Positions 2,700 to 62,411 of a stretch of 64,000 nucleotides of DNA are shown here, in pieces. Each line of letters begins with the position of its first letter. Position 1 is the first letter of the stretch. The stretch comes from Branchiostoma floridae. Taxonomy: Eukaryota; Chordata; Leptocardii; Amphioxiformes; Branchiostomatidae. The stretch spans positions 16,232,621 through 16,296,620 of the forward strand of contig NC_049982.1 in assembly GCF_000003815.2 (NCBI RefSeq). The letters run 5' to 3'. The translations under genes and the position numbers were made by a program. Below the pieces are notes generated by a model. That model saw only the letters and a list, made by a program, of their open reading frames with translations, was not told where the DNA came from and did no database searches.

Positions 2700-2890
2700 G
2701 GAGAGAAATGGAGAGGTAGGCTTGTGATTAAAACAAAGTTTGAAGTAGCGGGGGACGTGTCACGTCAGACCAGCGGCCATGTCCTGCCAACACCGCCCGG
2801 ACAGGCTCGTCATGTATACAGACCCGCGTGACGCGCACGCCACACACCGGACATCTACACACGTCACCCCGCGCACGCGCAACAACCACA
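2700..2890 (-). promoter_or_regulatory. CpG-rich 5' UTR/promoter region of the CNGB-like gene
   Basis: The 190 bases upstream of the channel ATG contain a dense run of CG dinucleotides (about 2820-2880, with cgcgtgacgcgcacgc) that contrasts with AT-rich flanks from 2900 on. No TATA box is evident. The position fits a CpG-type promoter and 5' UTR. The transcription start cannot be read from sequence alone. Confidence 0.4.
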
Positions 2891-25617: not shown

Positions 25618-25924
25618 ATGTGCGAGCCAGCGGGCGGTGCTGTACAGAGGGCGATGGAAGCGGCGGTGAGGGTGCGAGTGTTGTGGGCCCTGTTGGTCCT
25701 CCTGGTGCCTGCAGTGGTCGGGGAAGAGCTGGAGACAGTCGAGATCCGTCTGAGGGGCGGGAGTGACGACAACGAGGGGCGAGTCGAGGTTTTGTACGAA
25801 GGCGAGTATGGGACGATCTGTGATGACGAGTGGAATATCAACGCTGCAAATGTGGTCTGTCGTCAGCTTGGATACAAGGGCGCTGTGGACTTCAAACGGA
25901 GCTCATTCTTCGGACCCGGAACAG
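25618..25924 (+). CDS. LOXL2-like exon 1: signal peptide and first half of SRCR1
   Basis: ATG at 25618 (residue 1) or the in-frame ATG at 25654 (residue 13). The second gives the more typical signal peptide, [20 protein letters not shown]. Mature sequence begins near [14 protein letters not shown]. The SRCR half contains GTICDDEW and [10 protein letters not shown]. The donor acag|gtagga leaves phase 1. Intron 1 is 6.9 kb. Confidence 0.9.
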
Positions 25925-31900: not shown

Positions 31901-34900
31901 TAAGTAATGCCCCTGACCCATTTCTCATAGCAGGATATTAATGAAACTTGGCACAGTTATTAGTCTTTCTCTTCATAGGAACCACTCAGAGTTATGCATT
32001 TCTCCCATAGTTTGATGCAGATCTGGAAACCGTTTTTGTAGGACAACCCAGGTTGGTCCTCCAACACATGCCTCATTACTGGCAGAAGAGGGCCAACCAG
32101 CTCTGGGAGCTGTTTCCACAGTTCCGGCCATGTTTGAATTCAGGATGCCAGCGTTTTACAAGGTCATATGATGGGGCATCATCACCATAAGTTTTTTTCA
32201 TTTTATCAAAAGTCTCCTTTGGTGTGCGTCCTTTCAAATACAAAAACCGGATCACTGCACGACACTCAACTGGTTCCATTTCACACCTGGTCCATCTCAC
32301 ACCTGACTCAGTTCAAACACCAGTAAATCAGAAACCGCAATTAGTTTAGAGCTATTTTTTGCAACATAACCCATGGAGATATGAATCATTACACATACAA
32401 AACTTCATCTAGATCAGACAACTGGAAGTGGATCAGGGGCATTACTTATTGCACGCCCCTCGTATTTCTATCTAACATCGATCACATGAAACTTATACTA
32501 AGGCCATTTCCAAACAGAAGTAGTTTATTTGAAATACTACTTAGATATTACTTGATTGACATGAACAAAACCGTTGGGCATTTTGACTCACCTAGACCGT
32601 AACCTAGCAACCATGTGTATTAACGCGCAGATTGTACGTAGAGTCGTCTGCAGACTGGTCATTTCCGCATTTTGCCAGGTGGGGTGAAGGCGTGACCTAA
32701 ATAGCAACCAGATTAACGACCATGTTAATCACCTACAAGCCAAAGTAAAAGGTGTTGGCTGCGAACTGCATCGTGTATAATTTATGTACACGTCTGTCCC
32801 ATGTGTAGGTCAGGTGTGGCTGGACAATGTCGTCTGCAAAGGGAACGAGAGCAAGATCGGCGACTGCTCCCATCGGGGGTGGGGCAAGAACGACTGTAAC
32901 CATGACGAGGACGCCGGCGTCATCTGCAGCACGGAGGTCCGCGATGACATCGACATCTCAGACCGATACGTAAGTCAGGTGAGCCCCCAGTAGCCTCCCG
33001 CATGTTAGCAAAGTAGTTATGTAACATCTGTAGTTATGTAACAACGTAACACGACTGACGCACCCTTTAGCAACAGTAACACAACACTTACATTACAATA
33101 CAACATCGTCTTCTTCAAGCACGTGGGGACTGGAAATAGTGAAGCGTCTTCCTAATGAAGTTTTTCTGTAGGTTCGACCTTCCTCCCAAATCATCATCAT
33201 CATCAAAAATACGTCCAGATTAAAGATAATAGACGTGACAATTTCCTGTCACCATCTGCTTGGAGACAGTAGTGACGTAGTACATTAAAGGACACACTAC
33301 CCCATTTACCACCATAGTCGCATCCTATGCCGACTTTCCAACACATCTACTGACGATCTATGTATATACTAAAATATACCTTCACTATTATAGCTAGACT
33401 GGGCAAATCATTGGCGTACAAATACATATAAAAACCAAAGTTAATTATCGTGCACTGGAATATTTCCGCCTCTCGCACGCCCAAGTCCCCAGTTCTCCCA
33501 TACCCTTTCTGTCTAGATGTCGAAACTGCTCAGACGTACGTTATTTGTGGGTCTTGATGACAAAACCGACATTATCAGTGCCCAACCGCAATGGTTACCC
33601 GAGATTGGGACTTATGATTGTAAAATGAGCTTCCCGCCAACGGGCCATCAGAAGCCCAGGATGTTATCCCGGATTATACTAGCCGGAGTATCACCCTGGT
33701 TAGTTAACCAGCGCCCCCATACTTCCCCCTTACCAACCCGGTAAACAACAGGTAAGGAGGCACTGTTTTGACTGGGGCGCACATCTGTGGTTTATTACGG
33801 TCGACCTTCCCCTTGACAATGTTGTGTCTGCAGTTAAGTCTAACTTCGCTAGTCGAGGTTGCCTTCTTTCCCTAACGTCCGACTTAACTTGTTATCGTAT
33901 ACGCTTACCGCTTACCGGTCCCTTGACCGGGGTTGGTCGTGGGGGCGCTTTGCTGCTGAGCACTCAGGCATTCCCTCCATCTCTCCCTGTCGTGCGCCAG
34001 TGCTTACGCGTAACCAGTAACTTGTAAGTAAGTGCAGTATGTTACCAAACCGCTTGGGGGTTCTTCGAAGGTTGCGGTATTTGAACTACATGACCCTACA
34101 TACGCTAAGAAAGGATCGAGCACCTACTCTCCAAGCAGAGGTCGAATCGCGCAGATATATAGTAGTAGTCGAAAAAATTACACTCGCGCTCTTCCTACCG
34201 TTTAACGTTAGGTGCTCGTTCCTTTCTAACGTGAGCATTAGGTTTGCAGTTTTGGCACATGATGTTAGGCTAATAATGTAACTTGGTGGCATATGAGAGC
34301 AGCACAGGTGGTCATCTCTCCAGGTGTGTTGGTAGTCACCAAAGTTACTGCCGTTTCCCAACCACATGGAGTTCGTGATGTGTTTCACGTTTTCTGTCTT
34401 AACTGTTGTTCTTTCTTGACGAAAGTACAAGTTGGCTGTGGTCTTTCTGAGGCAGTAATGGTATTCTTTAGTAAGTCCTGCAGACAGGTGAGGACATTGG
34501 GAGAAGCAGTAGATGCCTTTGCCGTGACCACCAGAAGAGATCTTATTGATGAAAGCTAAGGAGACGTTGCTAGGTAAAGCAAACAATCCTTGGAAATGCA
34601 GGTCTGTGTGGTGTAACTAAGACAGAGACGGGTTTTGCCAACACGTGTGATCTGCTTCACCTTTGGTGTAAAAGGCAGTTCAGGCTATGGATTTCAAAGT
34701 TGGGTATTGACGGTTTTTGGTTTTGAAGGAATACCCTCTCTGCTTATCCTTATGAGGCAAGTCAGGAGGAATGTATAGTGTAGTGTAGTGGCCGGTGTTG
34801 GTGTTGTGCCGGTTAATGGTTTTTAATGTTTTTGTAACATATAACCCATTACTCTAGATACCTGTAATCTATCATCAATGGCTCCCTGGAGCTAGCAAAG

Positions 34901-37900
34901 TAAAACGTAAGATTTGTTGTTTGGGGCACATGAGGCAGAAACAGCTTCGTCCTATTGGATTCGGCAGTGGTGGTGAAGACGGTATTGGCCTTCTTTCTCC
35001 CCAGTATGTCGGGATCAGACGAAGAATACAAATCAGCTTAAAGTGCGTTTATTATCCAAATTATAGCCCAATTTTCATTCTTATTATGTAAACATGCCAA
35101 ACAATTATGTCTAATATTGCCAAAAATCATGACGACCCGTCAACCTATTCTCTTGTTGTTATAACTCTTGCCAAAGCCTCAAACAAAATCCGAACCTGCA
35201 GTTTCAAAAAAAAGCTTGTATGGTCCCCATACCATACCGGTTCTCCATGAGCCCACGAGCTATCTACTGTTAAAAGATCATAACCATAGGATGTCCAGGG
35301 TATGACACACGATATGAAAACTGATGTAGTTCTTCAGAAAGCCACCAGATGGTCCATAACCGAACGTGTCCTTCGTTTGCCGACACCTACCTACATACCA
35401 TCATAAAGATCAATCCGCAGCTTCAATGCTGTTCACAAACTGAAAACTCACAAACACACCCACAAACGTCGCGGAAAATATACCCTTCTTGACAAAGGTA
35501 ACAAGGGTTCGTCGACCTCTTATCTCCATGAAATATTTTGATTATGCAAACGACTTTCACATCTGCATGATCTACGCTTGGCTATGTACAGCTTTAACTA
35601 ACTTACACAGGTCACAATGTTGACAATCCAGTCATTTACTACATAGAAGAATTATTGCACTTTTGCATTACTTATGCAAATTATGGAAGTATTTGCATAA
35701 TTTGTATCTGCTATCTCCCATCTGCCACAAACTACATATTTGTTATATGTACTTGAGTTCTATAATGTAAAAATCTATTTTCATCATCAAATATGCAAAT
35801 TAAGTTCTAATTTGCTTAATTTAATAACTGCATACGAAATATCATGGAAATCCGTTAGTCCTTTGTTCCGTTATTCTTCTTAGAAGATTTTGACAAAACG
35901 TCCTTGCAGTTCCCGAGCAAGCTACTAGGAGCATACACCACTTTTTCCTTACATTACATGCTGTCTGCCACCAAAAAAAAACTAAGACCATTGCATGTCC
36001 AGATCACAAGATACAAAAAATGCAGTTCAACTGCGGTACCAAGGTCACATACTAGGAGGCCCAAAATTGACCTTGACCTCCGTCTTTCCACCACCTACCA
36101 ACATACCAAATATCAACGTAATCCACATAAGAGGTTCTTGAATCTTGAGCTATGCTGACTTCAAAAATCAGGAAACAAATACACAAACACGCAGACAGAC
36201 ACAACCAAAACTCCATTTTTCACGGAGATAAAAATTGCTTCGTCATGTTGGACTGGGCCGTGCTGGTGAAGACTGCAGTGCCCCACCCCGCCCCAGTATG
36301 TCGGGATCAGGAGAAGAATGCGGAGTCTTCAGCTCAGACGTGCCGGTGGTCACGTTAACACATGATGCAGAGTCATGGATGGGAAGCCCTGATGAGTCTG
36401 GAGACATGTGCGCAGACTGAATAAGATAACTCTGTGGTTCATGTTTTTGCCTCTCTAACGTGTCGATGGCCAGGTTGGCACGGTACCCCCAAAGCGTACA
36501 CTTATAAACGGGATGCAGATTTTTTCTGAATAATAGTGTTGCCTGATCGACGGTTTAGATTGTAAATAACAATTTCCGGGCAATTTGGTCTGTCAAAGCT
36601 ATCTGTCTTCTTGTCTGATTTTGGTCCCCTGGCCTGATGATCTTTGTGGTATGCCTGTTGTTTACGTCAGGGAAAGCTCCATCCTGAGATGAGAAGGAAT
36701 GGGAGGAGAAAGATGAGAGGCCAGGAGGAAGACTTTTATCTGATGACCTTCCGACGAAATGTCTTCTGATCCGTCTGTCAAATTGTCGATCATGACGTCT
36801 CGTATACCACGAAACAGGCGTTTGGGTCAGCAACCCGACTCTCGACTTTGATTTTGTCCAGATAGCTTTCTAGTGGAATGACCTGTTCTTAGGATCCGTC
36901 TTAACCCATTAACTTATCCAGCATGAGCCGGTTTTCACATCCCAGTAACTACCTCGTTTGGTTGGGAGCTGACAACCCTTACCTCCTTCATGACCTCAAT
37001 GAAAAGCGGCCTGTAGGCCGATTTGAGCTTCTCATGAATATTGAAAGTTAAGGATCAAGCATACAAACCTGGAATGAATTTGGCATTTGAACATGTACCT
37101 GACGACTCACATACTCTGTACTTCCTAAGTGGTAATCAATTCAACTTGTGGTGAGATATATTGATTGCTCATCGCCATTTCTTCCTGGCACAAGCTGTGC
37201 CATGTCAGGAACTCCATCACCGAAAGGATCACACAGGGCGGGGGTGATGATTAGTCTTATCCTGAGAGTCAGATAGTGGTTGTACTTTCAACTTTTGTTT
37301 GGATGCTGATAATTATCTGTGTCTGATCTGGAAAGTAAAAGTAGTCATACATCATGGCAAAGTACGGGGATGAGATAACAGACTCCTCGCCTGGGCATTG
37401 AACTACAGACGGTAATTGCTCAGCCATTCTCCACAACAACATAAATCAGTTTTGTTCATTTCCTGCTTTGTGGTGGGATATTTGTGGGCGGCAGTAGAGG
37501 AAACCGTGGGAAGAGGAAACCGCGCTATGACGAAAGAACACAACGTCTCTGCCAAAAGTGCTTGCTTTACTCATGGCCATGGCGGTGTTCAACGTCAGTA
37601 TCTTAGATCTAGATTCCAAAAATAATTGGTTAAGTGTCAGAGCTTAACAGTTTAACCTATGGCACAGTTCGAATCTTCACCCGCCGACTAAAAACCATGT
37701 CTGTGGTTGACGTACTTGTCTGAACCAGCCCACAGTTATTCGGGGCATCAGGGCCGGGGTTATCCCCGGTGTCTGTGCTTTGTAAGAAAACATGCGCTGT
37801 CCAGCGCATCTCCAAAGACAAACTGCGTCTGTACTCTGACCTGACAGGCCTTCTGAAAGGCAAGAGTCGTGAAACACCATGTCTGTGCACGAACACGTCA

Positions 37901-40900
37901 AAATTTCCCAACTGGTACTACCGTGCGTTTTCCGGTGCGTGGGCTTTAGTCTTGGCACCTCCATGCTTGCTTTTAATGGCTTTTCATGATCAATTGTGCA
38001 GTCCTTGCGGAAAGAAAAATCGGAAGATTTCAGAGGATCATGACTACAACCATAGACAGCACTGATCCAAGACAGACGATTCCCTGTTTTTCCTCGCGTA
38101 GACAGGACGTGCCAGTTACCAGGAAGTTAGTGGAGAAGATTTTGTCCTGTCTGTTATAAAGGTTGTGCCCTGGACGCTGACCAATTAGCAAGAAGTGCGT
38201 AGGAAATCCCTAGTGCTGCTTCAAACTGGTGTCATGAGTCATGGCGGGAAATTACAGGACTCTTATCAGGAGGAAGGGATGTGTCGTTTTACATCAGCTC
38301 AAGGCCATGGAACGCTTTACGAAATTTAGCAAAGTCAAATATTTCTACGTTTAATATGACAAATTTATGCCCATGAAATTAGAAAAAAAAAAAGATTTTT
38401 CAAATTCATGTGACGCTGTTCTACCGCTCTTCTGTCTGTCATTCCCAAGATTAGCGCGTCAGAAGATAGTTATCCAACTGCCTTCGTTGCTTATCTTTAC
38501 TTGATTATGTTAAGGTGGAAGACAGTTCTTATCTGCTTACCATGATGCACCTGTTCTACACATGTTTGTGACGTGACAGGTTTGTGCGTGTCGTTTGTAC
38601 ACCTGTCAATCAGCCGCCATGTTGATCACGGTCAGCCGTAAGGCGTGAGAAATCCCTCCTTCACCCAAACCGCAATGCCTCACGTAGTGTGACAATAACA
38701 CATCGGGGAGAACTTGTTGTCGTCTTTAGCAACTGTTTGAAGATATCAAATGGGTGCAATGTTTGGTTGACCTGTGCCCTGACCGTATACCAGCCATAAG
38801 TGATCATAAGTGCCTACCCAATCAGGAATATTTTCCCTCAGACGTTAGTGAGGCAAGGCGTCATATGGATAGCTAGTATAAGCTATCTATGTTGTATTTT
38901 CCGTTTTGTTCCTTTCCAATAGATGAATGCCCATTTGTAGGCTACGTTGATGGAAATACATTAGTGACATTTCAAGATGTACCAGATCCCAGAAGTATGG
39001 CTGCACCATCCCCAGTCCGGGAATCCCCCACCTAGTAAACTTGCCCGCCTCTGATTGGCGTGTCCATGGTGACGCAGACGACCCCCAGAACTGTACAAAT
39101 AGTGCAATACTGGAATTCATTACTCACAGCGTCGGAGCAAACACACTAGCCATTCCTGAGCATTGGAAGACAAGCCAGCGACAGCAATGGCTATGGAACG
39201 ACATTTACGGGTTCTGTTTCTGTTCTTGGTGGCTCTAGTTCCTTCCACACTAGCCTGGCTGGTAAGTACCAGTAGTTTTCAATGGGTGTAAAATCCACAT
39301 TTTCCGTTGATACGCCAGAGACATATTTGATATGGTCGACATAGAAAACGCAGTCTGGAAAAATGAAAACAATTCAATGTGCCAAACCTGTGTCATTGAA
39401 CCCACCGGTCTTTGTCGTAAGCAACTGACGCACAGATAGTTGTTCCCTGAAGCCTGGACAGGATCCAGCATCTGTACCTGTTTTGTTAGCGAACAATTTC
39501 TAATGGCTGGACCATTAGATAGGCCAATGGAGGTGCTCTTGAAAAGGGGCAGCTGTACTGTTAAGATTACCTGACGTAGCTTCGTCTCAGACATCTCGAC
39601 CATCTTTTGTCGTTTCATGTTCATTTGAAGATCGTGAGAAAGAGGATGTTTCTGACAAAGTATTATACATATAGGATGTTTGAGTTGTGGAAGTGTAAGC
39701 AGGGAGCTCTAAAGACCATTGGAAGCTATTTGGCGTACTTCAGCACCACTTTGTAAAAGATTTTACCGTGCCACATGTCTGACTTTATCCTGGCTTAACT
39801 TCCTTGTCTGGAGAAACACCTAAAAAGGAGACGGGGCCTTGAACCCCCGTGGCTTTGGATGTTCTCTGACGTAACGTTAGTCATTCACCTGACGCAGTTC
39901 GGGACAATCTGGATTTAGTAAGGGTAAGGGCAGTTGATTTTGAAGCAATCTGCCCGTGCTGTAAAAAGAATTTAGATTATGATAAATAAATGCTTGTTTC
40001 GACTCATATGCTGTTGTAAGTGTGGCTGAGGTGGGCTACGGAACATGAACACCTATTTGTTGGATCACCAGTACGAGCCATGTTTGTATTATCTAACCAC
40101 AGGGCACAGTTATAGCATTAGAAACGGTTTGTCCCCAATGCATAGCAGCTGTGTTATGTCTTATACAAGTTTGTACCTAAGTTGTATGCGTCCCGTCTCG
40201 AATCTCGAAATGTTTAGACACCTAAATCCTCTAGTATAACAAATATAAGGGGCCTACTGTGTAAGTGTACCAATAAATTCAGTAGTAGACCGGTCCCTCC
40301 CAAGACGTCCCATTTTAGAAAGGTCAAACTGCTTGGAATGCTTGCTATTCTCTCTGGGTTGCCCTTTCTTTCAATGTTTTGGGAAGCTGTTTCGGCAGGA
40401 CATGTTCGCTTTTCAACAGCTCTTGTAGAGAAACACAGGCCTCATTCTCTCCTAAGTGTTCGGCCCGCACACACCTGGCGCACGGGCCCTGGAGTACAAA
40501 AGGCAGTGGTTCATTGCTGCTATTCCTTTGTCTATGCAATGACAGCAGAGGCACTGCTCCAAGAAAATGCGTCCTCGAAGAGCATAAGTCTTCCTGTTCT
40601 CGCGATAATCGGTGACAAGAGGCGGAAATAACGGTTCAGATATCGTATACAGTCTGAGACACGTATTTTTCCCGCTTTTCGTAGCCTCCACTAGGCCCTC
40701 CTACGGGGGTGCGGGGATCGTAGAATTCGGCAAAAAAATCGGGAAATTGGCCGGGGGAGGGGGAGGTGGAGGGTTAGGGTTACTGCTTGGAGAGTAGGTT
40801 AGGGTGGGAGCCAGTCCACGCTTAGATTTATGTTTTCCCTCCAGACTTCTCGGCAGCAAAACTCCCCTGGCAAATTATTCTCCCTATAATGCCCAGCGTA

Positions 40901-43900
40901 TTGACGTCAGTCTGGTAGAGCAGGCAAAGCAAAAGCATCCAGACTTTCGAGTTTCGTAAGGTTACAAATACTAGTAGTGCTTACCATTTCATTAGTACAA
41001 AATTTGCCTATGGCACGATTGATGGAGAATGTTATCGGTAAGCCTGGGGCAGAATATGTAACGTTATGACCTGCTATGTGATGTTTACATTGGCAATATT
41101 TGACCTTGACCCCTGCGCGTCACTTTGGGGATACACCAGGAGATATAAAACCGGGTAATCAGTGACAGACTGTGACCTTCCTAGAGTTATGGCCCCAAGG
41201 TCAACGAGAAACGTCATGTATATGATGAGTTTCCTACACTCTGGGAAGAGGCGCGGTAAAGAGGGGTATATGGTTTTACCAGATGATTTCCTGTCTGACT
41301 CAACGTCTATGTGAAATATCCGGATCCTTTGAATGAGCGACATATATAACAAACAAATATTTGACGTTCATGCCCTACAATGGCGTTTAATACGAGCCAA
41401 TAGCCAACTGTATGATAAAGCGAAGATGTCTTTGAAGTGTCAGGATGAAGAAGAGAGAGGACTTGTTAGCTAAGTGCTTGGGAGCGGACAACACTGGTGA
41501 TGAATCACTAAGGCCCCCTTTTCACTAGACGGCGATCGTGATGCGCTCTCACTGCGACCTAAATAGGATATGTGTAACCTTAAGTATATCATAGAGCCTG
41601 TAAAAGTGTGGCTGAGAATACAACAAAACACACATAGTGCAAAAAAATCGTTTCTTTTCTATACAATTCGTTGAGCGATCTGTCAAATTTTAGGTCGCAG
41701 AGAGAGCGTGGTGAGAGCGCCGTCCTAGTGGAAATGGGGTATAACCATGCATTGTAGACGTGACCTTCGTTTGACAAGTTCAACATTAACCTGTGTCTAC
41801 TTAGCCTTTATTACGTTAGCCGTGTAGAGGAGGCGGCGGACTTGGAGTGGTTTCACTTAGCGCAGATTTCCTGGTCAACATTAGTGTTGGGTGTAAAGTG
41901 GGAACAGGAAAACAGGTTGTTTTTCTGATATGAAGTTTTTACGGACGAGAATCATATTTTTAAGAATCGAAGAAGTAGTTGACGATATTTTGGGGTCGGA
42001 ATTTAGGGAATTTCTTACACGGAGGCGAGGCCGGACCACCGGCCAACTTGTAAACAGTATTAACCTCGTGTGTTTGAGCTGGGCGACCCGTGTCAGGACT
42101 ACGATCTGTTCTAATAAACAACTGTCGAGCACGTGATCTTTGGAGGGTGACTAAATTGTGGATGATACGGTATAATTTTTTATGTATTAGATAAAGGTAC
42201 GAAGTCAAATGCTCTTAATTAATGTACATTGACGTGATATATTAAGTCCTCAAATGTCAGTTTGTTGCAGTTTCTAACCTCCATTACCGTTATTGTATTC
42301 TGAACCCTATCGTCCGCCCAAATGGTATGGGAGGGGTATTAAATGACCTATGGTTACCTCATTTGCAAAGCAGGGCTCACTGTACCACCATTCGTACACC
42401 GAGCTTGAGCCTGAAATGGCTGATCACATGCATTCTTTTTAAGCTGTGGAGGGGATTCAATTGACTACGTTTTAATGCACCTTACCAACATACATGCTCA
42501 CAACAGTATAGTTTCAAACAGTTGACGGTGACAGAACCAACCTTACCGAGATGCAAAATGAGTGCCTTCTCTACTTGCACTACCGAAGCGTTATATTTCT
42601 TATACCTCTTGAAAGACATATCACTAAATCTGTAGATTTATGTTGTTCGTTGCAGGTAACCCTAAGAGTGGGTGACATCAGACTACGAGGCCTCACCAAA
42701 AGAATACCTCAGGCGGAAGGATATGTGGAGATCAATTACCAGGAAAAGTGGTGGCCGATTTGCGCCGATGGATGGGACTATAACGACGCTAAGGTTGTTT
42801 GCGGTCAACTGGGGTTCAGAGACGCCCTCACCGTGGACCTTCGGAAATACAGGTGCCCCACCTTCTTGTCCGACATACTACATGTGTTGCGTATCCGTAT
42901 AATTTGTTAGGTACCCACGAAGAATGATCAGACCTGAATCAAACGTAAGCGCTACGGAATATTTAAGACTTTTAAGTTCAGTTGGATACGTAGTCAACAG
43001 CACTATTGCCTGCAGCAGCTAAGAACGGAGACCACATATTGGGCTGATTCACTGAACAACCTTTTGACAGATCGGTGTATCACTGGTAGTTAGAAAGGAA
43101 AAGGTGAAGGACTAAACTTGAGTATGAGAACCACATGTAACAAGAAAGATACTTACAGTGTAATAGAGAGCACAAAACGTCAACCAATTAGCGTTAAGAA
43201 AGTGCCATATACATATACATGCCCTCACTGGCAATCATAAATACATGTAGTAAATTAGATTTATGTGGTTGACCTTCCTACAAATGTACGTCTCACGCTT
43301 GTCTTCTACCCATGCTTCCTCTCTGTGATCATCTCCTGATGGTTAGACTAACTTGGCTTGCCTCTCCATTATCAGTCCTAACGGTTAAGGATGTCTGAGA
43401 TTCTAGATTCCATTTGGCTGACCTGATAATTACAACAATAAGACCAATGGCCATACGAACGTTACCTTCTCAGCGGAGATAATAACAGTAGACGCGATCG
43501 CGGTATACGTGACAACAAGCTGGACTGTGTGGCTCAGGGTCAGTCTTACTATCGGTCTCTGGCAGCAGACAAGCCAAACAAATGCGATTTTGTGGCGAAT
43601 TGCCACCGGAAATTGCAACCGTCCCTGTCAGGTATTTCTTGCCGTGTCACTCTCTGTAGCCGCGCCAGATTTAATATTTGTACGAAATAATGACAAATGA
43701 AAAAAAGCCATCTTTCTTTTTTCTTTCACTTTTTGTATTGGACTTTTGGCGAATGAATCGTTACTGTGATGCCTTCAGCAGGGTGACATGGGGAATCAGT
43801 TTGTTATTTCGGACCCATCTTGTAGTTTTCTGTAGTACTGTAGCTTTGATAATGGATGTCGCTTGACCTCGACAGGCTGCTCCCGTAGCACCACAACACA

Positions 43901-46900
43901 CGCGGTAAACACCAGAAAACAATTACAAACATGCGGCCGTACGTTTAGACCTGTGTGTTTGGCCCACCTTAACACACGGATTGCCCGGGCACCCAGGTTC
44001 AGTGCACGCAAGAGTCGCCCATGGAGGGTCACCTGGCCTGGCACCAAACTGTAGACAACATCAGGATTGTTTTCCACCGACACGCGCGTCACGCGACTAG
44101 TGCCACCTCATAAATCTTCAGGGAAACTTAATAGTCAGCCAAAGGTGGACTTACCACCGTCACGGACGGGACCGTACGATGCTCGGTCCTGTTGTGTTCA
44201 CACAGGCGTCCTTGACGCCAGGTGAGCGATGTGACAGTTGCACGAGTCAGTAATGAAGCACAGATGAGCAACGCTGTTTGCTTGCAAAAGTAAATGGCTC
44301 ACGTACCTTAATTTGATGAATTGAGGCTCACACGGAAGTGTTCCCAACTTTCTGCACTTTTCCTTGGACATGGGCCCGAACCAGCGGCGTCCAGTCACCA
44401 AGTAATCTATTAGTAGGTTGGAGCGAGCTTTTGCAGGTATTGCGGGATATCCCAGAGATCGCTTCGAGATAGTTTCAATATCCGATATCGGCAGCTTTCA
44501 TTTCAAGCACTTGTGATTACTGTTTACTTTGGCGCGTTAGATTGCGTACATTGTTCGGTATGTGAAGATGTAAATAAAACTGGAATATGAGCATGGGTTC
44601 TGAGGCCGGGAAATTCTGTTCCGTCAGATTGATTTTGATGTCGGTGGAGACTACTTGAGTGTTTAAGGTATTCAGTCTTTAAGTAAGGAGTTCTGAAGCT
44701 TCAGTCAGGACATAGGCAGGCTCTGCTGCTTATACCCGTCCTTAAGCTGACTTGAGCACAATTCTGTGATCAACGATGTTTGTAACTATCTAAACTCCTG
44801 ACTCGTACACTAGTGGATAACGGGACCTTCAATGGCTGCTTTTGCAAAAAGCTACAAAAGATATTTACCACGTTAGTTTAGAATTGCCAGAGAAAAGGTC
44901 GAATTCCACACAAACCAGAAAATCTTTCAGCTGTACACATTCTTAAGTTGAGATAGCGCTCTATGCTCTAAATTTTTATCGGAAACATAGAACTCTACAT
45001 AGTATGATGAAAGCTGTATTTTTTTCCTCTAGACTTAAGTCTAAGATAGCAAGTGTCAAATCGTAGAGCCCACGTGGTGGCAAAGGCATCGTCTATCATC
45101 GATTTACGTCATATCGAGGTCACAGGTCAGGCAAAACATCCGGCGCGGATCGTCAACAATCAACATTGACGTCACTGGGGGGATCCATTTCAGCCGCTGC
45201 TATTTTTGACAACAGCAGTGAAAAGATTTGGCTCCGCTGGTACATGGTGCTCTAATAATAGTTCATCTTTTTTCATCCCTGTGTCCTGCCCCCCGCCTTG
45301 TTAATACCAACATATATGTTGCCAAAGAACACTGCGTTCGTGCGTCAGAAAACCTTATCCGTACATGATGACACCAGGTGTGGTTACGGCACAACATTCA
45401 AGATTTGGTGGCTCTGTCCTATTTATAGCCACACAGGCTGTTTACAAAATGCTATTTTTGTCGTCCCCGTAACGGTAACTGTTGTTCGTTCCCTCCATGA
45501 CTTTCTTTAAAAAGGGCGGTAAATTAAAGTAACGTCTTAGTGGTGTACTGTACAGTAACATAAATATAATGGGGGTGCAACTATATGCCCCTCATTACTA
45601 CATGTATGTCGATGCTAAATACATGATAACTGCAGAAATAGTACTACTTACATGTCTTCCATGTCCTGATGCTAACCAAGGAGCTTTTATCATAAAAGCT
45701 CATTGTGCTAACGTAATAAAAGATCTGCAATTGTGTGCAATTTTTCAATTTGAATTATTCCTTACAGTAGGTCTTCTATTCGTTGACTTGTTGCCCTCCA
45801 TTAAACGGCCCGAATTCTGCTGTAGATATGAGAGACCACTCCTACACAAGGATGCATGGCTGACACGGGTGGACTGTACGGGGTCGGAGTCCACCCTGAC
45901 GGAGTGCCGACTCGAGAGACTCATCCAGGGGACCGTGTCCCTGCCCTGCCTGTCCAACATGACCGCCGTGGTGAAGTGCGACCTGGGCCCGCGGTACTCA
46001 GGAGTCTCCCCGACAACACATAGGAAGTTATCTGCTATTACCACACAGGTAGGTGTTGTAACGGTCTAGCTCAGCCAACGGCATCGAATGTTTCTGATTT
46101 TAGAGGCAGCATGGAACTGCATACTTGAAACAAGGTGACTGACCCGTAAACGGGCAGCGAAAGTCGTAGTCAAGTGGAAGCCTCCCTAGATGCTATCAAA
46201 GACTTCATCAGACCTGAAAGAAGCGAGAAGAAGTCGAATTCACTTAGTATTAGTAGAATATGATTCTTGGACGGTCCTCTTCTTCGATTAATCTGCAACA
46301 ATGTCTGCCGCAATTGTAACATACATGTAAGAATAATTATTTTATTCACGTATTTATTCTTATATATCAGCCCAAGTTCGTGCGGTTAAAAGGCGGTGCG
46401 AACACGGGAGAGGGACGGGTGGAGATCTACTATAACCGGCAGTGGGGGACTGTGTGTGGCCAGTCGTGGGACCTGAAGCAGGCTAGCGTGGTGTGCAGGG
46501 AGCTCGGCTACGGGTCCGCACGGTCCGCGCCGAAAGGGGCACAGTTCGGACAAGGTAAGCAATTATTCAGGTGTGTTTGCATTGGATATGGTCTGATAAA
46601 GGAACCGTTGTGCAGATTGATAGTTGACAACTTGTTTTCAAGTATCATGTTCCGTTAAACATTCACTTGCGATGTCATTTCATGGGCGACAAGATTGCAA
46701 AAACCCTGGCAGTGATGGCCGAGGGCTCCAGTTTCGGGTGGATGGATACTTGTTTAACTTATGTGTTCAAATCGTTGTTACAAGTACATTTTTTAACAGT
46801 AACATGTTTCCTCTCAACGTTACCTGTATGTCGTCCCCAGGACATGGACCAGTCTGGTTGGACCACGTAGTGTGCACTGGGAACGAGCTGTCGATAGTGG

Positions 46901-49900
46901 ACTGCGCACACTCCAACTTTTCTGCCACGAGTTGCACACATGACCATGATGCATCAGTGCAATGTAATGTTCCGGACTTGAAAGTCAAAGAAAAGGTAAT
47001 TGGTACTTTGCCTAAAGTCTGTTAAAGGCTATTCCTTCTAAGACACAGTTACCCTAAGAGGATTAGTGTGATGCTTTTTGACTCTATTCTCTAACGTATA
47101 CGACAATTTAATGACATTTGACCTTGCTGCTGTAAAGTAACAGTGGGTACGTTCTCCCCACAGATCCGTCTGTCAGGTGGGCGGAACCCGCGGGAGGGCC
47201 GAGTGGAGATACAGAGAGGACGCAAGTGGGGAATCGTCTGCAGCAACAGCTGGACGTACAAGGAGGCCGGGGTGGCCTGTAGACAGCTCGGGATGGGATA
47301 CGCTCTGCACGCCCTCAAGGTACAGCATCCCGCTAGTCCATACATAGCCCTCTGCTCAGTCTCTGCAGTCTTACATTGGACCCCCCAAAACGTCCATTTT
47401 AAATGTCTTGTTTTTTTCCATCCTTTATGTTACAAAGAAAGATAATTTCTTCACTACGGTTCAAAATCGCATTGTGATTCTCATGGTCATGAAAAAGTGT
47501 TTGAAAATCGTCTCGCCCCCACTGTAACTTGCAATGTTTTGTAGATGATATAAAGTGTCACAGTTATGTTGTACATGAGTAATGTTGCAAACGGAAATGA
47601 CGTCCTTGGTTTGCAAGTGATTCTGGGCATTACTCAACAGGTTGGGACAGAAGTAGGGGCCACACGTTCTTGGTTTTGTAATGTCTACAAGGCCGTTCAC
47701 TCTTTTGTTACCGTAGGAGGTTTGGTATTTCGAGGGAGACAAGCTGGACTTTGTCATGGCTGATCTTGAGTGTGACGGGACGGAAGAGGCGCTTCACTTC
47801 TGTCGGTACAAGTCCTGGACCAACAAGGGGTGCAAAAGTCACCAGGTGGCAGGCATCATCTGTACCCAGGGTAGGAAAAGAGAAGCTTTTTTTCATTAAG
47901 GAGAAGACCACGGGGAGGGGCTAGCATGGGATGTATGGCATCATTGCAATGTTGCAGTAACGTCACCGTCAATTTTGAAAGACTTCAATGTGTCCTCACA
48001 AATTTATATTTTATCAATAGAATCAGCACCAAGTAAATTGATTGCTAGAATCTTCTTTTGACCAACCTTGTTGTTGTTTTTCATAAAGATGCTGTTTGTC
48101 CTGTTTAAGGTCGGTTGAATGTTGGATGTATTCCTTCCTCTTCTACAGCGAGATTACCTGACCTGGTCCCAGACGCGTCTCAGGTCCGGCAGTCCATCTA
48201 CCTGGAGGACCGGCCGCTGTACCTGCTGTACTGTGCCGCCGAGGAGAACTGCCTAGCCAGCTCCGCATACCAGGTAACATCAGCGTACACGAAAAGAGCT
48301 TTCAGCAACCAAAACCATTTTCAGTTTATTAGCCAACTGTTTTAGTCCTTCTTATGGAGTTAAAACAAAGGCTACAGATCCGTATGTAGACTAGTCTATC
48401 CCATTGGCCGAAAAGCCCATTAAGTCGGCGCACACAACACAACCATACCAGACAAACTTCTCAAGAAAGCCATATTTCTTCCTCCCCAGATGGAGTGGCC
48501 GTACGGGTCCCGCCGCCTCCTCAGGTTTACCCAGGCCGTGGCCAACTTTGGCAAGGCGGACTTCCGGCCCAACATCGACAGTTCGCAGTGGATCTGGCAT
48601 CAGTGTCACGCGTGAGTAGCAACATGTGGACATTTTGGCATATTGGAGAAGTTCTTATCATCTCGCGAAGATGAAAAATGCCGTAAAATATGCTGATCTA
48701 GAGCAAAGTTTCATAAGGTCATGTTACCTTTTGTCAATGATGTCACTGTCACCTTGTAGATGGAGTTGATCTGCATGACTGTACCATACCTGAACCTGAT
48801 CTGCTGTGCTGATGTAGACATATGAGATAGAGATAACAATTTAATCACACTTTACTTAATTATCAAACCTCTATATCCACAGCCACTACCACAGCATGGA
48901 GATCTTCACACAGTACGACCTTCTGTCAGAGAACGGGACCAAGGTGGCTGAGGGGCACAAAGCCAGTTTCTGTTTGGAAGACTCTCACTGCTATGATGGG
49001 TACGTACGAGAAACTCCTGTCGTTCAGGGATAGTTTGTCACCTTCTGCCAGCATTTGGTGTTAAAGACTGACGGACAGGCCAAAATAGAATTAGAATAGC
49101 ATCTGTTAACCACTTTCCTTCAAAACATGCACACACTCGCAAGGACGTGCATCGTTGGTATACAAAACATTCAAAATTTGGAATGCAATGGCGAAGATCA
49201 CCTTATTTTGGCTTTGGGCTGTACAAGCTTCGTGGTAATCCATTGTCCATCGGTTTGCGAATTTTCAATCATCACCTCTGTACCAATTCAGCCATACCAC
49301 ATTCACAAGTCAATGCTATCCTTTGTATTTCCTATCGATAGGGTTGTCATATTACTGCCCTGTTCACCATTTTTGTTGCCAACCGTTTGTTATGTCAACT
49401 TAACGCGTCCTCTTCTCCCTCAGGTATGAGCCAAAGTATGACTGTAATGTGGGTGAACAGGGAATTTCCATGGGGTGCGACGACACTTACAAGCACAGCC
49501 TGGATTGCCAGTGGATTGACATCACGGGTGTTCCATCAGGGACCTACACCCTGGAGGTAAGTGTGAACAGTAGACAGAATGTGAAGGAAAAGCCTAACTG
49601 ACGGTTGAAACGATTTTTCTCTATTCCAACTAAGCACTACGACTGCCGTGTATGGTGGATAGGGAGTCATACTGTCTTGTTGTTTCTAAAACAAAGTCGT
49701 ATGCCCAAGAAAAAAATATGGGTGAGTTCAGCCCATAAACCATGTCTTTCTGTTTCCTCCAGGTCATTATTAACCCGTTGCGGGCAGTGGCAGAGATGGA
49801 CTTTGAAAACAACAGAATCTCATGTAAACTTAACTACAATGGGTATCAAGTCGTCGCCAACGAATGCCATTTAGGTAAGACGTTTTTTTTCACGTACGAG

Positions 49901-55145: not shown

Positions 55146-55302
55146 ATGCAGATTCAATGTGCACAGGTATTCCGTGTGTGCGGCATCGCATCTTTCGTGG
55201 TTTTCTGCGTGCTGTATGGGTCCTATCAATATTACTACAACTACTATGGATACTACGGATACGGAGACTCGCAATCTTCGAATGACATCGACTCGGAGCC
55301 AG
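55146..55302 (+). CDS. LOX/LOXL1/LOXL5-class lysyl oxidase, exon 1: signal sequence and Tyr-rich region
   Basis: ATG in a strong Kozak context (ccaccatgc). The exon encodes 52 residues plus one base. Residues about 11-25 are hydrophobic (VCGIASFVVFCVLYG) and form a signal peptide or a type II signal anchor; residues 26-37 are almost all Tyr and Gly, and an acidic Ser/Asp stretch follows. Tyr-rich sequence just before the catalytic domain is also known in vertebrate LOX. The donor ccag|gtacgt leaves phase 1, matching the exon at 60901. A weaker donor 4 bases on (ac|gtgtca) would give phase 2. The pairing with 60901 rests on phase and family logic, so intermediate exons are possible. Confidence 0.65.
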
Positions 55303-58300
55303 GTACGTGTCAGAAATATACTTTTCAGAACATCTTGTATTTGGTCTTTAATCTTTTGATTAATTTTTCACCTTTTTGAAGCCGTCATGATAAAAGTTTA
55401 GAAATCTGTGGGTCATACACAGTTGTCTCCAGCTGATCATGGAGAGGGGATTATTTTACATCTGCTTCCCTTGTGCAATTAAGTGTGAAAGTGAAAGTGT
55501 TTCTTACGACCTTTCTTACAGACAAAGTCTCAAGCATGTGTATCCATAGGATAGCGTTGGCAAGATGATGCTCTCAAGCTCGTGCAGAGCATTATTGTAT
55601 TGTTTCCAGAAGCACCATAGTTCTTCGACCTTGGACAGTCACGTATCTACCGCTTGGAACGGGCCGCTTTTAGCCATAGGGTTGCATTAGACGCATAGAG
55701 GGCCGCTCCCTAAGACAAACTCGGCCTTTTAAAAGGAATGGATCGAGACATCGAGCAATACATAACCGCCCCAGACAAAAGTGACACTTATGGCCTGTGA
55801 CCTAGACTAAAGAACTGCTTACACAACCTACACTGACCTAAAACTGTTTGCTACCAGACTAGCTGTTGTCCGCTTGCGTCTGTTCAGTCCGCGGGCGTCT
55901 GATCAGTTCTGTATGATGTATACTGAATTGCTATAACATGTATCATAAATGTTCTGTCGTCACCATGTTCTTGACGTAGTGCTGCAGTGCTGTACATTAC
56001 AGTGCACTACTGTGAGCCAGTCTATCAATACTTGTTATTGACGAAGCTAGTGTTTCCACCAGAAACGAAGGCTGCCTGATCCCTGATGACTGTTGCTAGA
56101 TAATACACTTATCATAAACCTACCTTTTTTCTACAGGATACAGAGAATCTGATGCAAGTTGCAAGTGAATGATATGGCCACTTTTATTTAACGTTGTTAT
56201 CACAGAAAAGCTTATCCATCCTGTCTTGAGATTTTTTACTCAGCGGGGGTCGTACTTGTAGGTCAAGTCATTTGGCAGCCCTCTAGGAATCATCAGTGCA
56301 GCCGCCTGACTCTCCGTGTCATTCCGCCGAGGGTGAAAAGGTCAAATTCAAGATGTCTGCGGGTGTTCGACCGGCACCAAGGGACTGTTCATGATCATTA
56401 ATTAGTCGACGAAAAATTCTAAAACAACCCTTGGTTTGCCACAACTTACGGTATGTATATGGTTCGTGTATGATACCACACTACTCCCTTACGAAGGCCT
56501 AACCAGTACCACTTTTTCTGTTTCCTGGCTTGTGAAATTGCACTTCAGTGATGATGATTGCTTCCTCCCTGAAGAGAATAGAAATGTCCGTATCTTATTG
56601 TCTTAGATTCTTGTTGAGGGAGAACAACAAATTGTTAAGTTACGCGCCATATAGCCAATCTGGCCGGGCGACCAAATTTGATTCGCTTCATGGTGGCGTT
56701 TAGAATAATAACGTTTAGAATAGTAATCCACAACATTTCTAACCTCGAGTAGCTATAGACTGAAATTGGCTGACAGCGCAATGTTTTCTGCCTCCCTTTC
56801 GCCTTTCACTAGATGAATTGTGATTCATCATTGATCACCTGGTCTTGATCTGCGCGGCAACAGATTGGGGTCAGGCATTATAGATCATTATAAAACCCTG
56901 ATGAAACGCATGTTTTGTAACCCGTCGACAGATGGAACAGGTTTTACCTGAAGATGGCTGGATGAGGTCAAATCTATTTCAAAACTCACACTAGTTATGT
57001 GCTGGCTTGTTTAGGTAAGGAAAGTAAATCTTCAGGGTATATGCCAACTCTCAAGCATTGACGTCGGGAGTGCCCCTAGCCCATTTGGAGTGCTGTTAGC
57101 CACTGTGTTATGTCTAGCTCCCGACGGTTCTTTGACTATAATAGCTCGGCTGAAGTTTCTCAGTTGTTATTTCCTTTGCTTGACAACGCAAAATATTTAT
57201 ATTATTCATTCATTACTCCAATCACGAATAGCACCCTTCCTTACATTCATGCATTGGTCGTTGGTGGGAGTGGCAAAGGTCAGAGATGCATTCCACCCGA
57301 AATCCATGACAGATTTAATGTACTTGTCCCCCTGAAGTTTGTGCAAACCACTATCCTTGAACCATTTGTACAGCTCTGGGCGTAAATCTTATACTGACTC
57401 CTGTTGCATCTAGTCTGAGCGTGCTGTGTTATGTACTATACCAGACTGTCTGCCTGTGTTGAAGCCGTCACGGCGGATTCCCTGGATCGCGGCCGGAGGA
57501 GTGTTTTCATGGAGCCCTGGCACGCAAAGCTCTTACAGATGCCACGTCCTGCCATATTTTCACCAATTCGAGAAGGATTGGCTAAGGCCAAGCCTCAGGC
57601 GTGGAAACCCATTTGAAAATGGTGCCAACAAGCTGACAAAACGTTTCATTTTGAAACGGTTCACGTCCTCCTCTAAGAGATAGCACATACCTTTTCAATA
57701 CGTTATACATTTCACTAGATTGGGAGAAAATCTAGTAAAAAAAGTAAAACTGAAACAGCCATTAGGAAGACGGGGGCAAAAATAAAATCCTTTATTAGGA
57801 ACACACCGTACATCACCTTCGGCTACTAGTGATATTGGTTACCTTCTCACAAGGACCGAGTTAAGTAATCCTCTCATATAAAAGGGGTCGTAGATTGCGT
57901 GTGTGCCAAAATTGATAAGATCCTGTAAAACAGTTACTAAGCTAATAACTAATCCTGCGTGCAACCGTGGCCATCCCTGTGAAAGTCTTTATCATTAGTT
58001 TTGTACTGCCTACACCCAACATCGTTCCTCCGTCTTCTGGAAGGATCTGTCACAAATTTCAACGATAATGTCCCGTGATTATGTCCTAATTCAGGTAAAC
58101 TGTCAGGAGGCTCCCCATTTCTTTTCGATTTTAAACGCAAACTCTTCGGCCAATTCTTATGCTTTGCTTGTCTGTATTTGTTTTTATTTTCTATCTTTAT
58201 TGTATTTGTTTGGAATGGACTCTGATGATGTCGACACGAAAATAATAGGCTTGTGTATGTCGTCATCATGCGTATCTAAATGTTGCAATAAAAAAGTCAT

Positions 58301-60086
58301 TTGTGTCGAAATCAGTTGGAGTTTTCCGTAAAAACGTTTGCTGACTTACAAAAGAACGGAGATTTACACAAAACGGGCACTGAGAACGATCCGGATCCTC
58401 AAGTTCAACACTTATCATCATCATGTCTTGTCGGGCTTTTGCCAGTACTTCAACCTGAGTCCAGGGCCTAGGGCCTCTTGCTTCAACACTAATAGAACAA
58501 TTGTGTTGAAAGAACTGTAGAATATAAGATGTGTGCACCGAAATAGCCATCTAGATGATTGTCGATCCTTGTTGGAGGATTGTTTTCTGTTGAGAATATA
58601 CCCAAGCAGTTGAGCTGTATTTTCGATGGTTATAAGAGTTTTTGAACATTCTAATGTCAATTTTTTGTTGCGCAGTATATTGTCATAGGCTGACTGAAAG
58701 CACTATTGCAGTATTAGTACTGCAACAGAGTTGTTTATGAAGTCTTGTCAGGGTATACACATGTACGTAGCACTTTCCGTTGATGAATTAGTCTTCATCT
58801 TGGACCCGGACGACTAACATCTACTTTTCATCCTGAGTTCTGAGGAGGCTGGCTCAGCAGCTGGAATCCCTAACCTCCGAATGTGGTCACGTACTGGTGT
58901 TTCTGCTTATGTTCATGGCAATCTGTTGAGAGGCTAAACTTTGAGGTGTGAAGACTGAACCTGTTAATAATGTTTAAGAATTGGAGTGAATGATTGACAT
59001 AAAATGTGATGAGAATGGTTGGACTTGACGGAATTAGTTATTGCATTTTCATTTCTTGCCTGAAAATGGGAACTGGCTTCCATATTGTTCCCATTCAATA
59101 GAAGAAAGGCTTTCAAGCAGTTCATACCACCCTCTGGCCGACTCCAAATATCTAGCGTGCAGCATGTTGGGAGTCCCGAGACAGTAGTTAAAAATAATAA
59201 ATGAACCCGCAAAACAGTACGACAGATTTAGGCGCCATAATCACCCCATACTACGGTACTTGAGCCACACTCTGTTCAAATTAACCACATCTACACATGA
59301 CCTGAATCCTGATCAGGTCAGCCATGACAGATGATGCCGTTCGACTGGATGAATTCGAACTCACAGCTCGACGGGACGGTCGCGTCTATTCAGATGACAC
59401 CATGATCACACAAGACTTCCAGGTTGCCAACATGCATGAAAAGTTGTTGTTTTGCAGATGACAGAGTGTTACCAAACGTTAACTGTACAAATGTAGATAA
59501 GTAGAAACATCGGCTTGCTAGGCACACCGGCCTCTTGTTAATTCGAATGGAGGGATCTCTTTTATTGTAAAAAGGAAGCTTTCGTTGTAAAGCTCTGTTC
59601 CAATGATAGCAAGACAAATATTGAGCGTTCAAGATGGAGCTATGGTCAATTAGCATGTCTGGATGTCAAGGACAAGCTAAGCTACCCTCCGTGTGAGCAG
59701 CAAACTTAATCAGTCCCCCAGACAGACCGATTTCACTACCACTATGTCATCCCGATGTCGTACAGTCTAGATGCCGACATGAGTACGTCTGTGATGGTCG
59801 ACCTCACCAACTTGACACCGGCTAAATGTCACCATTAGCCTGAAGTTCACTTCACAGTTCACACTGCCATTAGAATGGTGTGAATATCTCGCCCGAGGAT
59901 ACGGATGCATTGTGTTACGGATTATAGCATTCTCAGCATACCTTACGAGTATCCACAGCTGGACATGTCGGCAAGAAAGTTTGGACCTCGTTTAGTTTTC
60001 ATTATCGCGCCCATGTTGTCATAAGTGCGAAACTAGACACGCTCGCCTTTTCGTCAATGTTGAATCATTTGTTTGATTTCGTTCAG
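55303..60086 (+). other. Putative intron 1 of the second lysyl oxidase gene
   Basis: Long stretch without recognised domains. Frames at 57090-57385 and 57426-57683 have unremarkable composition and no supported splice sites. Confidence 0.45.
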
Positions 60087-60229
60087 TAATACCAGCTGGT
60101 CCCCTCAAACGAGAAACAAAACGTCTGCAGAAGAGGAAAAGCTAAACTTCTTGTCTGATTCTGAGCGACAGACCTCCCACTCGTACATACCAGTGTCTGA
60201 CGACCCGGCTGGGATGACTCCCGCGACGG
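60087..60229 (+). CDS. Candidate cassette exon (propeptide-like) of the second lysyl oxidase gene
   Basis: A good acceptor (gatttcgttcag) and a donor (acgg|gtaacc) bound an open, strongly hydrophilic stretch with two N-glycosylation sequons (N-T-S, N-K-T): SAEEEKLNFLSDSERQ then SYIPVSDDPAGMTPAT. Its exit phase 1 matches the exon at 60901. Its entry phase 2 does not match the main donor of exon 1 but would match the weak alternative donor at 55306|55307. Vertebrate LOX propeptides are hydrophilic and N-glycosylated, so the composition is suggestive. Could be chance. Confidence 0.28.
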
Positions 60230-60900
60230 GTAACCATGGAGATCAGAGAGGGCAATGAACTTTACTTGTCGTCTGTTGTGTTGTTTGTTGTCCTCCCCCA
60301 AGATGTCCCAGCCTTAAGCTTGTGTCTCTAACGTTGTAACGAACCAAGTTCTTGGTTCACAACTATGAAATGTTTACGGACCGAAATAGACCTTATGGCG
60401 ACAGGATATGCACCCTCCTATCATCAATGCATCACGATTTAAGGGGTTTTGCGCTCCCTCGTTGCTTCTTTTAGTTTGGATTTCCTTTACTATCGAGAAT
60501 GTTGCCAACCTTGATCTTGCCAAGGCTGTAGTGACACAGACACGGCTCAGCTCAACAGGCTCATACGGACTAAGATGGCACTGCGCTTTTGCATGTTGGA
60601 GAAATGCACACCATTTGGTAGAAGTTATTGACTTCATTTCTTCATTGCCATGTCGTCTTCCCTTATGTTCCCGTCCTGCGGGCATAAAACTAGAAGATCC
60701 AGTGTATACCCCCTCCCCCTTACACACACACAAACCATACGTACTTTGATAATGATGAGATTTGGGGATAGAATGTTGAGGACTTCGGGACAGAAACTGA
60801 TTAGAAAAATGTCAATGTAAAAACATGTCTTAATAAATGAATATCAATTCAAAGGAATACATGTCCTCAGTTTGATCGACACATAACATCTTGTTCCCAG

Positions 60901-61141
60901 GTCTACCCGATCTCGTCCCCGATGCCTACGTGATCCAAGTATCGGCCTACTTGGACACCCAGCCGATGTCGACGCTTCAGTGTGCGCTGTCTGAGAACTG
61001 TCTGGCAAGATCGGCATGGAACGCCGACTTGAGCGACGAGAGGAAGCTCCTCAGGTTCGCACTGAAGACAGAGAACAGGGGAAAGGGAGAGTTCAACCCA
61101 GAACTCCCTCGCCGCTACTGGGTCTGGCACTCCTGCCATCA
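60901..61141 (+). CDS. Second lysyl oxidase gene: first catalytic-domain exon
   Basis: The acceptor cttgttcccag completes Gly and the exon encodes [52 protein letters not shown] and YWVWHSCHQ. The copper motif WHSCHQHYHSMD, completed in the next exon, is the LOX/LOXL1 form, not the LOXL2 form. The donor ca|gtgagt is phase 2. No SRCR domain precedes it. Role: secreted or membrane-tethered oxidase of matrix lysines. Confidence 0.93.
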
Positions 61142-62411
61142 GTGAGTCCAAATGATCATACATAGTTCTTGTTAGAACAACTTTCTACTTTGTCAATACA
61201 CGTGCATACAGTATGATTGAGTAGGTTGAGGTGTAGTTGTATTGTTAGTCATCACTTACCTCATCCCTGGTCAAAGGTTCTGCATGCAGATGAATATTGT
61301 AATGAGCTTTTTTAACAGTTACACAGTAAGGCGAGGTATGGTAAAATTTCATTTCTTTGTCAATTATAGAAAATGTTGATTACATGTCCACAACGTGGAT
61401 AACTATGCACCATCAGGTTAAACTGACCTACGCATCTATAGATGGAGTAGTGTTCTCAGCAGTGCACATTCCATAATTACCCAGACAAACCCACACCTGG
61501 TAAGCAATGATCGCAGGGCAGCTCTCTGTCCCTAGTATCAGGCCAGGTGTCCTTGAAAGAGATCTCTTCCTGAAGCAGGATTGTCTTACTCTGTTGGGCA
61601 GCGTTGCCCGCAAGTTGCCAATAAAAGAAATGACCACTGCATGGGAAATGTAAAAAAACACTCTGGCCAGTTGATGTTTAAAACATTTCATGTTGGTTCG
61701 GCTAAGCAGATGCCACAATTTGGACCTCAAATCATCAATCAAAAATTTCCAGCTATATGGAAATCGTCCAAACTTCACAAGAGAACATGGTTATGCCGCA
61801 CAGCTATGTTGGTGAACCCATTCTTCCAGCCAAGCAGCCAGATGGATCTAGATCTGTGCTCTGGCATGCACCATGGACAGGAACTGCCCTGAATGATGTG
61901 CACAGAGCCCACGTAGCCTGGTAACCGCACCGTTAGAAAACTGTTTAGCTATTCATAGGACAAGTTGTCTTTCAACAGGCAGACACAAGGCTTACCCTGC
62001 AGCCTGTCCTTGACATAGTTTCCGTCTTGTATTGAATGAGGGACGATGCGGAAGAATGATTTAAACGTGTCCATTCAAAGGATAAGAAACACCCACGAAA
62101 ACAAACACAAAGACGCGCAGAGGTGATGATGCATCATTGAGCACTAAATCTAGTAACGGTCTGTGGTAGGTCTGTCCTGTGTTCGTTTGTCACCTTTAAT
62201 ACCCGGAAACAAATTTTTCGGGTCAGGGCTCAGCACACACGACAAGTAGCAACCTACAAACGACCTGGTTAGACCGAAATAAAATACAACTGTTAGTAAT
62301 GATGTTACTGGTGCTAGAAAAGAAAGGAGTATTCAACTTGACACCCTGGAAAACATCATTTTTTCATTGTTTACTTCTCGTCTTTAAACTTTACCATCTG
62401 TAGCCATTTCG
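61142..62411 (+). other. Intron of the second lysyl oxidase gene, 5' part
   Basis: No exon recognised. Open frames on both strands at 61428-61892 match nothing I know. Confidence 0.55.

Follow-up and report, generated by a model that had tools for sequence, protein, structure and literature searches.

The LOXL2-like gene and its neighbours

The stretch of DNA analysed here, which we call the window, covers 64,000 nucleotides of the genome of the amphioxus Branchiostoma floridae (C4:16232621-16296620); the genome searched comprises 513 Mb in 431 contigs. A tblastn search with human LOXL2 locates, on the + strand of this DNA, a LOXL2-like gene, which would encode a collagen-crosslinking enzyme. 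The ends of its exons were placed by splice consensus and frame, with nine exons (5-13) bringing the model up to 49874. The features are the following:

25654..25924, + strand: normal exon 1, signal peptide and first half of SRCR1
32809..32978, + strand: normal exon 2, second half of SRCR1, exits in phase 0
39054..39101, + strand: putative promoter elements, inverted CCAAT (ATTGG) at 39054-39058 and TATA-like TACAAATA at 39094-39101, weak
39187..39261, + strand: candidate alternative first coding exon, 25-codon signal peptide, phase 0, GTAAGT donor
42656..42852, + strand: exon 3, start of SRCR2, phase 0 entry, common to both predicted forms
45826..46048, + strand: exon 4, remainder of SRCR2 and linker
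46371..47870, + strand: exons 5-8, SRCR3 and SRCR4
48149..49874, + strand: exons 9-13, lysyl oxidase catalytic domain, with a putative short last exon beyond

The full-length translation has 706 residues through exon 13 and consists of a signal peptide, four N-terminal SRCR domains and then the lysyl oxidase domain. Pfam recognises the four SRCR stretches (350.7 bits) and Lysyl_oxidase (298.7 bits across the whole profile), which bears out the LOXL2-class identity proposed in an earlier note on this DNA. The residues expected at the copper site (histidines) and in the cofactor (lysine and tyrosine) are present in the translation; their identities are presumed from an alignment to human LOXL2. 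Judged by its predicted product the gene has the architecture of the LOXL2/L3/L4 superfamily, in which four SRCR domains precede the lysyl oxidase domain. Exon 3 by itself cannot name the family, because its peptide alone has a better PDB match to CD163-type SRCR chains than to LOXL2. It should be noted that the exon model contains two weak donors, those of exon 3 (0.76 bits) and exon 7 (0.01), and that an additional in-frame ATG is present at 25618 in the region of exon 1. Exon 3 is immediately preceded by ttgcag. An ATG-bearing open frame at 42551-42655 (+) runs unspliced into this exon, and a transcript beginning just upstream of exon 3 would likewise keep the frame.

The gene heads a cluster of three LOX genes. 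At least 14 lysyl-oxidase matches were found in the genome and those reported all lie within C4:16280777-16311882; a second LOXL2-like locus to compare with was therefore not obtained. By tblastn, SRCR exons within the cluster are found in gene 1 only. Gene 2 (window 55146-61142, continuing beyond the window) has no SRCR exon that tblastn could find; its probable first exon, 55146-55302, encodes a signal peptide and, after it, a stretch rich in tyrosine; its donor is in phase 1, which fits the phase-1 entry of an oxidase exon near 60901. With one SRCR-bearing gene followed by two in which no SRCR was found, the cluster could represent two LOX superfamilies that are still adjacent. Elsewhere in the window an open frame of 463 residues is found at 1368-2759 (-), which resembles a piece of an ion channel of the cyclic-nucleotide-gated or a related type.

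Gene 3 carries duplicated catalytic exons outside the window, at C4:16310282-16311879. The exon that encodes the copper-site histidines and the cofactor lysine (HHHSME...) occurs three times in tandem (154, 157 and 154 bp, with gaps of 58 and 62 bp), and the exon after it occurs twice (96 bp each, with a gap of 57 bp). All copies are open and have AG/GT ends; in the second of the two 96 bp copies the donor, GTTTGA, is weak. The three copies have 27-29 residues identical pairwise over 39-41 of the 51-52 codons, a comparison which leaves out their divergent tails, and the two copies of the next exon have 23 of 32 residues in common. The non-synonymous divergence between copies is 0.15-0.27; the synonymous divergence gave no finite estimate, which we read as saturation. 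The triplicated exons enter and exit in the same frame, and since their lengths are 1 mod 3 two copies together would shift the frame. From its exon arrangement gene 3 looks like a case of mutually exclusive splicing in the active site of an enzyme, in which the candidate exons would permit up to six variants. We found no mutually exclusive lysyl oxidase exons in the literature, judged by titles and the openings of abstracts.

The candidate first exon in intron 2

Intron 2 of the LOXL2-like gene extends from 32979 to 42655 (9677 bp). The candidate exon begins with an ATG at 39187, continues through 25 open codons and ends with CTG at 39259-39261, followed directly by a GTAAGT donor from 39262; a second in-frame ATG is found at 39193. 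The earlier note had described exactly such a phase 0 signal-peptide exon and had placed it in the middle of an intron of about 9.7 kb; the exon and the size of the intron are confirmed from the sequence, whereas the position is about 64% along the intron rather than in the middle. The donor scores 6.53 bits, a value reached by 11 of the 4273 GT sites on the + strand, the candidate included. A signal peptide has a basic n-region, a hydrophobic core of 8-12 residues and small residues at -3/-1, and in a rule-based scan the candidate exon shows this pattern with h 3.52, a net charge of +1 and cleavage after residue 23. The ATG at 39187 has a G at both -3 and +4, and within the 150 bases upstream the sole other ATG is at 39066.

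An in-frame TGA is present at 39157, upstream of the ATG. This stop codon makes it conceivable that the region works as a poison or terminal exon, 39130-39261, entered by way of the acceptor-like ttcattactcacag and spliced after exon 2 of the full-length mRNA; translation would then stop after SRCR1, and the outcome would be lower expression or a secreted SRCR1 fragment. The length of 132 bp, with phase 0 on both sides and the in-frame TGA, would suit such an exon. The acceptor has 8 pyrimidines in 14 positions as against 9-13 in the 12 acceptors listed for the host gene, however, and a signal-peptide pattern placed after the stop is left without explanation. We consider a poison exon very improbable.

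The normal junction 32978/42656 is in phase 0, so the candidate exon can replace exons 1-2 exactly. Exon 3 does enter in phase 0 at the start of SRCR2, as the exon model and its phases confirm for the second part of the earlier proposal. When 39187-39261 is joined to exons 3-13 the frame is open for 584 residues, and Pfam finds three SRCR stretches and Lysyl_oxidase in this predicted short form with SRCR1 absent, in agreement with the SRCR2-4 and oxidase content that had been foreseen. The length of 594 residues given for it would fit if the last exon is the one at 50917, one of ten candidate last exons listed; up to exon 13 the length is 584.

The same phase would allow other partners. Exons 5, 7, 8, 10 and 13 likewise enter in phase 0, and skipping can therefore preserve the frame, so that the candidate could be the first exon of a transcript which skips exon 3 and is joined to, for example, exon 5; alternatively it could belong to a small nested gene for a secreted protein. 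Against skipping, the coding exon recognised next after the candidate is exon 3, and against a nested gene, no Pfam family was matched at E <= 0.1 by the 10 open frames chosen for scanning from the 110 listed in the intron. Taken together we find these two possibilities unlikely.

Two origins of the candidate exon were considered and set aside. Its peptide resembles that of exon 1 (ME..RVL..LVP), but the longest DNA match between the two is only 8 bases, so a duplication of exon 1 is unsupported. An origin from a repeat or transposon finds no backing either: the 601 bp around the exon match one place in the genome, namely themselves, in a search which ignores simple repeats and words of very high frequency.

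The proximal elements contribute little. The earlier note had pointed to CCAAT-like and TATA-like elements at sensible distances, and both exist, the only TATA box candidate being TACAAATA; their frequency is close to that expected by chance. The + strand of the window has 1265 ATGs after base 250. CCAAT or ATTGG lies 100-170 bases ahead of 12.9% of them, and for 2.5% of them a TATA-like word, taken from a loose list on which TACAAATA itself stands, is present as well. With such background frequencies the elements are weak support, and the TATA-like word is indistinguishable from chance. The G+C content is 0.54 in the 187 bases upstream of the candidate exon and 0.43 in the flanks. For CpG the observed/expected ratio is 1.02 in normal exon 1, 0.74 and 0.67 in the flanks, 0.61 directly upstream of the candidate exon and 0.44 within it, so that a CpG-rich promoter signal is absent. 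Promoter elements and base composition thus do not carry the case for the candidate exon.

How often such an exon would arise by chance

The main alternative is that 39187-39261 is an unused intronic open frame which happens to resemble a signal peptide in front of a strong donor. A strict scan (ATG, open frame, hydrophobic core h >= 1.8, -3/-1 rule, donor >= 4 bits, 14-45 codons) finds on the + strand of the window the two in-frame ATGs of the candidate exon and nothing else, and on the minus strand one weaker match. A looser scan, over 104 kb of + strand and allowing up to 200 codons, gives 15 rows, of which the candidate exon has the highest h (3.52); the scan recovers the first exon of gene 1, at 25654 with h 3.25, and the probable first exon of gene 2, at 55146 with h 3.0. 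In the same intron there is a rival frame, 34293-34487 (+), with 65 codons, phase 0, a donor of 7.9 bits and a core of h 2.65, which together with the control stretches described below speaks for chance.

The null was 451 Mb of DNA simulated by an order 4 model that was built from 20 stretches of the same genome. It contains 2 candidates (4e-5 per 9.7 kb) that are in phase 0 with donor >= 6.5, h >= 3.5 and a net charge >= 1, and at donor >= 4 and h >= 2.8 it contains 283, or 0.006 per 9.7 kb; these figures overstate the surprise, since the cuts were set after the candidate had been seen and the candidate may have been selected from many windows. When the demands on phase and charge are lifted from the first set there are 22 candidates in 451 Mb (0.05 per Mb). 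A simulation of order 3 (3 Mb) gave no phase 0 candidate with net charge >= 1 at donor >= 6.

The real control consisted of 20 stretches of 10 kb at round positions (3.0 Mb of C1-C19 and 13 Mb of C1), read on both strands. No candidate with donor >= 5 and h >= 2.8 was found on either strand of these 20 stretches; one candidate has h 3.5 with a donor of 4.85. The loosest cut is passed by 8 candidates in the 0.4 Mb of real strand, or 20 per Mb, versus 10.9 per Mb in the simulated DNA, and this rate of about twice the simulated one means that the null flatters the candidate exon somewhat, although some of the control candidates may be true exons.

The candidate exon is much better than expected from composition alone, with the caution that the cuts were post hoc. 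The genome holds, as a rough figure, thousands of genuine signal-peptide first exons, and most candidates as strong as this one would therefore still be real. A chance pattern gains from the promoter elements being near background level, from the eight control candidates, and from the thought that the best of many such patterns may have been picked if many windows were searched. The low simulated expectation per intron, both at the strength of the candidate and at looser cuts, weighs against it, as does the agreement of phase, strand, start context and single-copy sequence. We regard chance as a serious explanation which is nevertheless rather unlikely.

The predicted isoform and its known parallels

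On balance, and with modest conviction, we lean towards 39187-39261 being a genuine alternative first exon, from which an internal promoter would give a secreted isoform with SRCR2-4 and the oxidase; here we infer the promoter, the splice, the secretion and the consequence. Transcription would start some 60-100 bases upstream of 39187, within the intron between SRCR1 and SRCR2, and the first AUG of this mRNA would open the new signal peptide. Splicing in phase 0 would connect 39261 with 42656, where exon 3 begins. The protein would be routed into the secretory pathway, the signal peptide being cut near STLA|WL, and the mature enzyme would be an oxidase with SRCR2-4 only. The short isoform is a good prediction from the sequence. 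A form which lacks SRCR1 would plausibly be secreted and be less able to dimerise.

If this reading is right, one gene would give two secreted cross-linking enzymes, with the choice of promoter rather than proteolysis deciding between them, and the two would differ in a domain which in human LOXL2 is tied to partner binding and dimerisation. Amphioxus would then offer a chordate outgroup, predating the split of LOXL2, LOXL3 and LOXL4, for experiments on what SRCR1 does. Judged by titles and the openings of abstracts, we found in the literature neither a signal-peptide-bearing SRCR2-4 variant nor a publication on LOXL isoforms of amphioxus.

The LOXL2/L3/L4 superfamily has been reported in cephalochordates (PMC4448552). 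The SRCR-LOX architecture described there is likewise that of the amphioxus gene; isoforms are not treated in the part of that text on which this comparison is based.

The closest parallel is found in human LOXL3. As described in part of the text of PMC6678131, the variant LOXL3-sv1 is without exons 1, 2, 3 and 5, its translation starts in exon 6 and the first three SRCR domains are absent; an alternative promoter of 80 bp with a TATA box is located in the 5' flank of exon 4. The same source describes LOXL3-sv2, which is without exons 4-5, the exons that encode SRCR2. Since sv2 loses SRCR2 by losing these exons, the promoter of sv1 apparently lies in the SRCR1/SRCR2 intron, corresponding to the one predicted in amphioxus. 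Both would thus yield an SRCR-trimmed oxidase from a promoter in this intron, and as far as these descriptions go an SRCR-trimmed LOXL isoform made from an internal promoter is already known, which makes the present idea less novel. The difference is that SRCR1-3 are gone in LOXL3-sv1, whereas the amphioxus candidate has its own signal-peptide exon and keeps SRCR2-4. One might speculate, at long odds in our view, that an internal promoter between SRCR1 and SRCR2 is ancestral to the chordate LOXL2/L3/L4 genes, that amphioxus uses it together with a signal-peptide exon of its own for a secreted SRCR2-4 enzyme, and that human LOXL3-sv1 is a remnant of this promoter.

Two further systems are similar in outcome, again as far as the parts of the sources drawn on here describe them. 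LOXL3-sv2 resembles the amphioxus candidate in that a single SRCR domain is taken out in frame, and differs in that this domain is SRCR2, lost by omitting exons 4 and 5. PACE4 or factor Xa cleaves LOXL2, either between SRCR2 and SRCR3 or where SRCR3 begins (PMC10532419), which likewise leaves a secreted oxidase minus N-terminal SRCR domains; this form is made by proteolysis and not by transcription.
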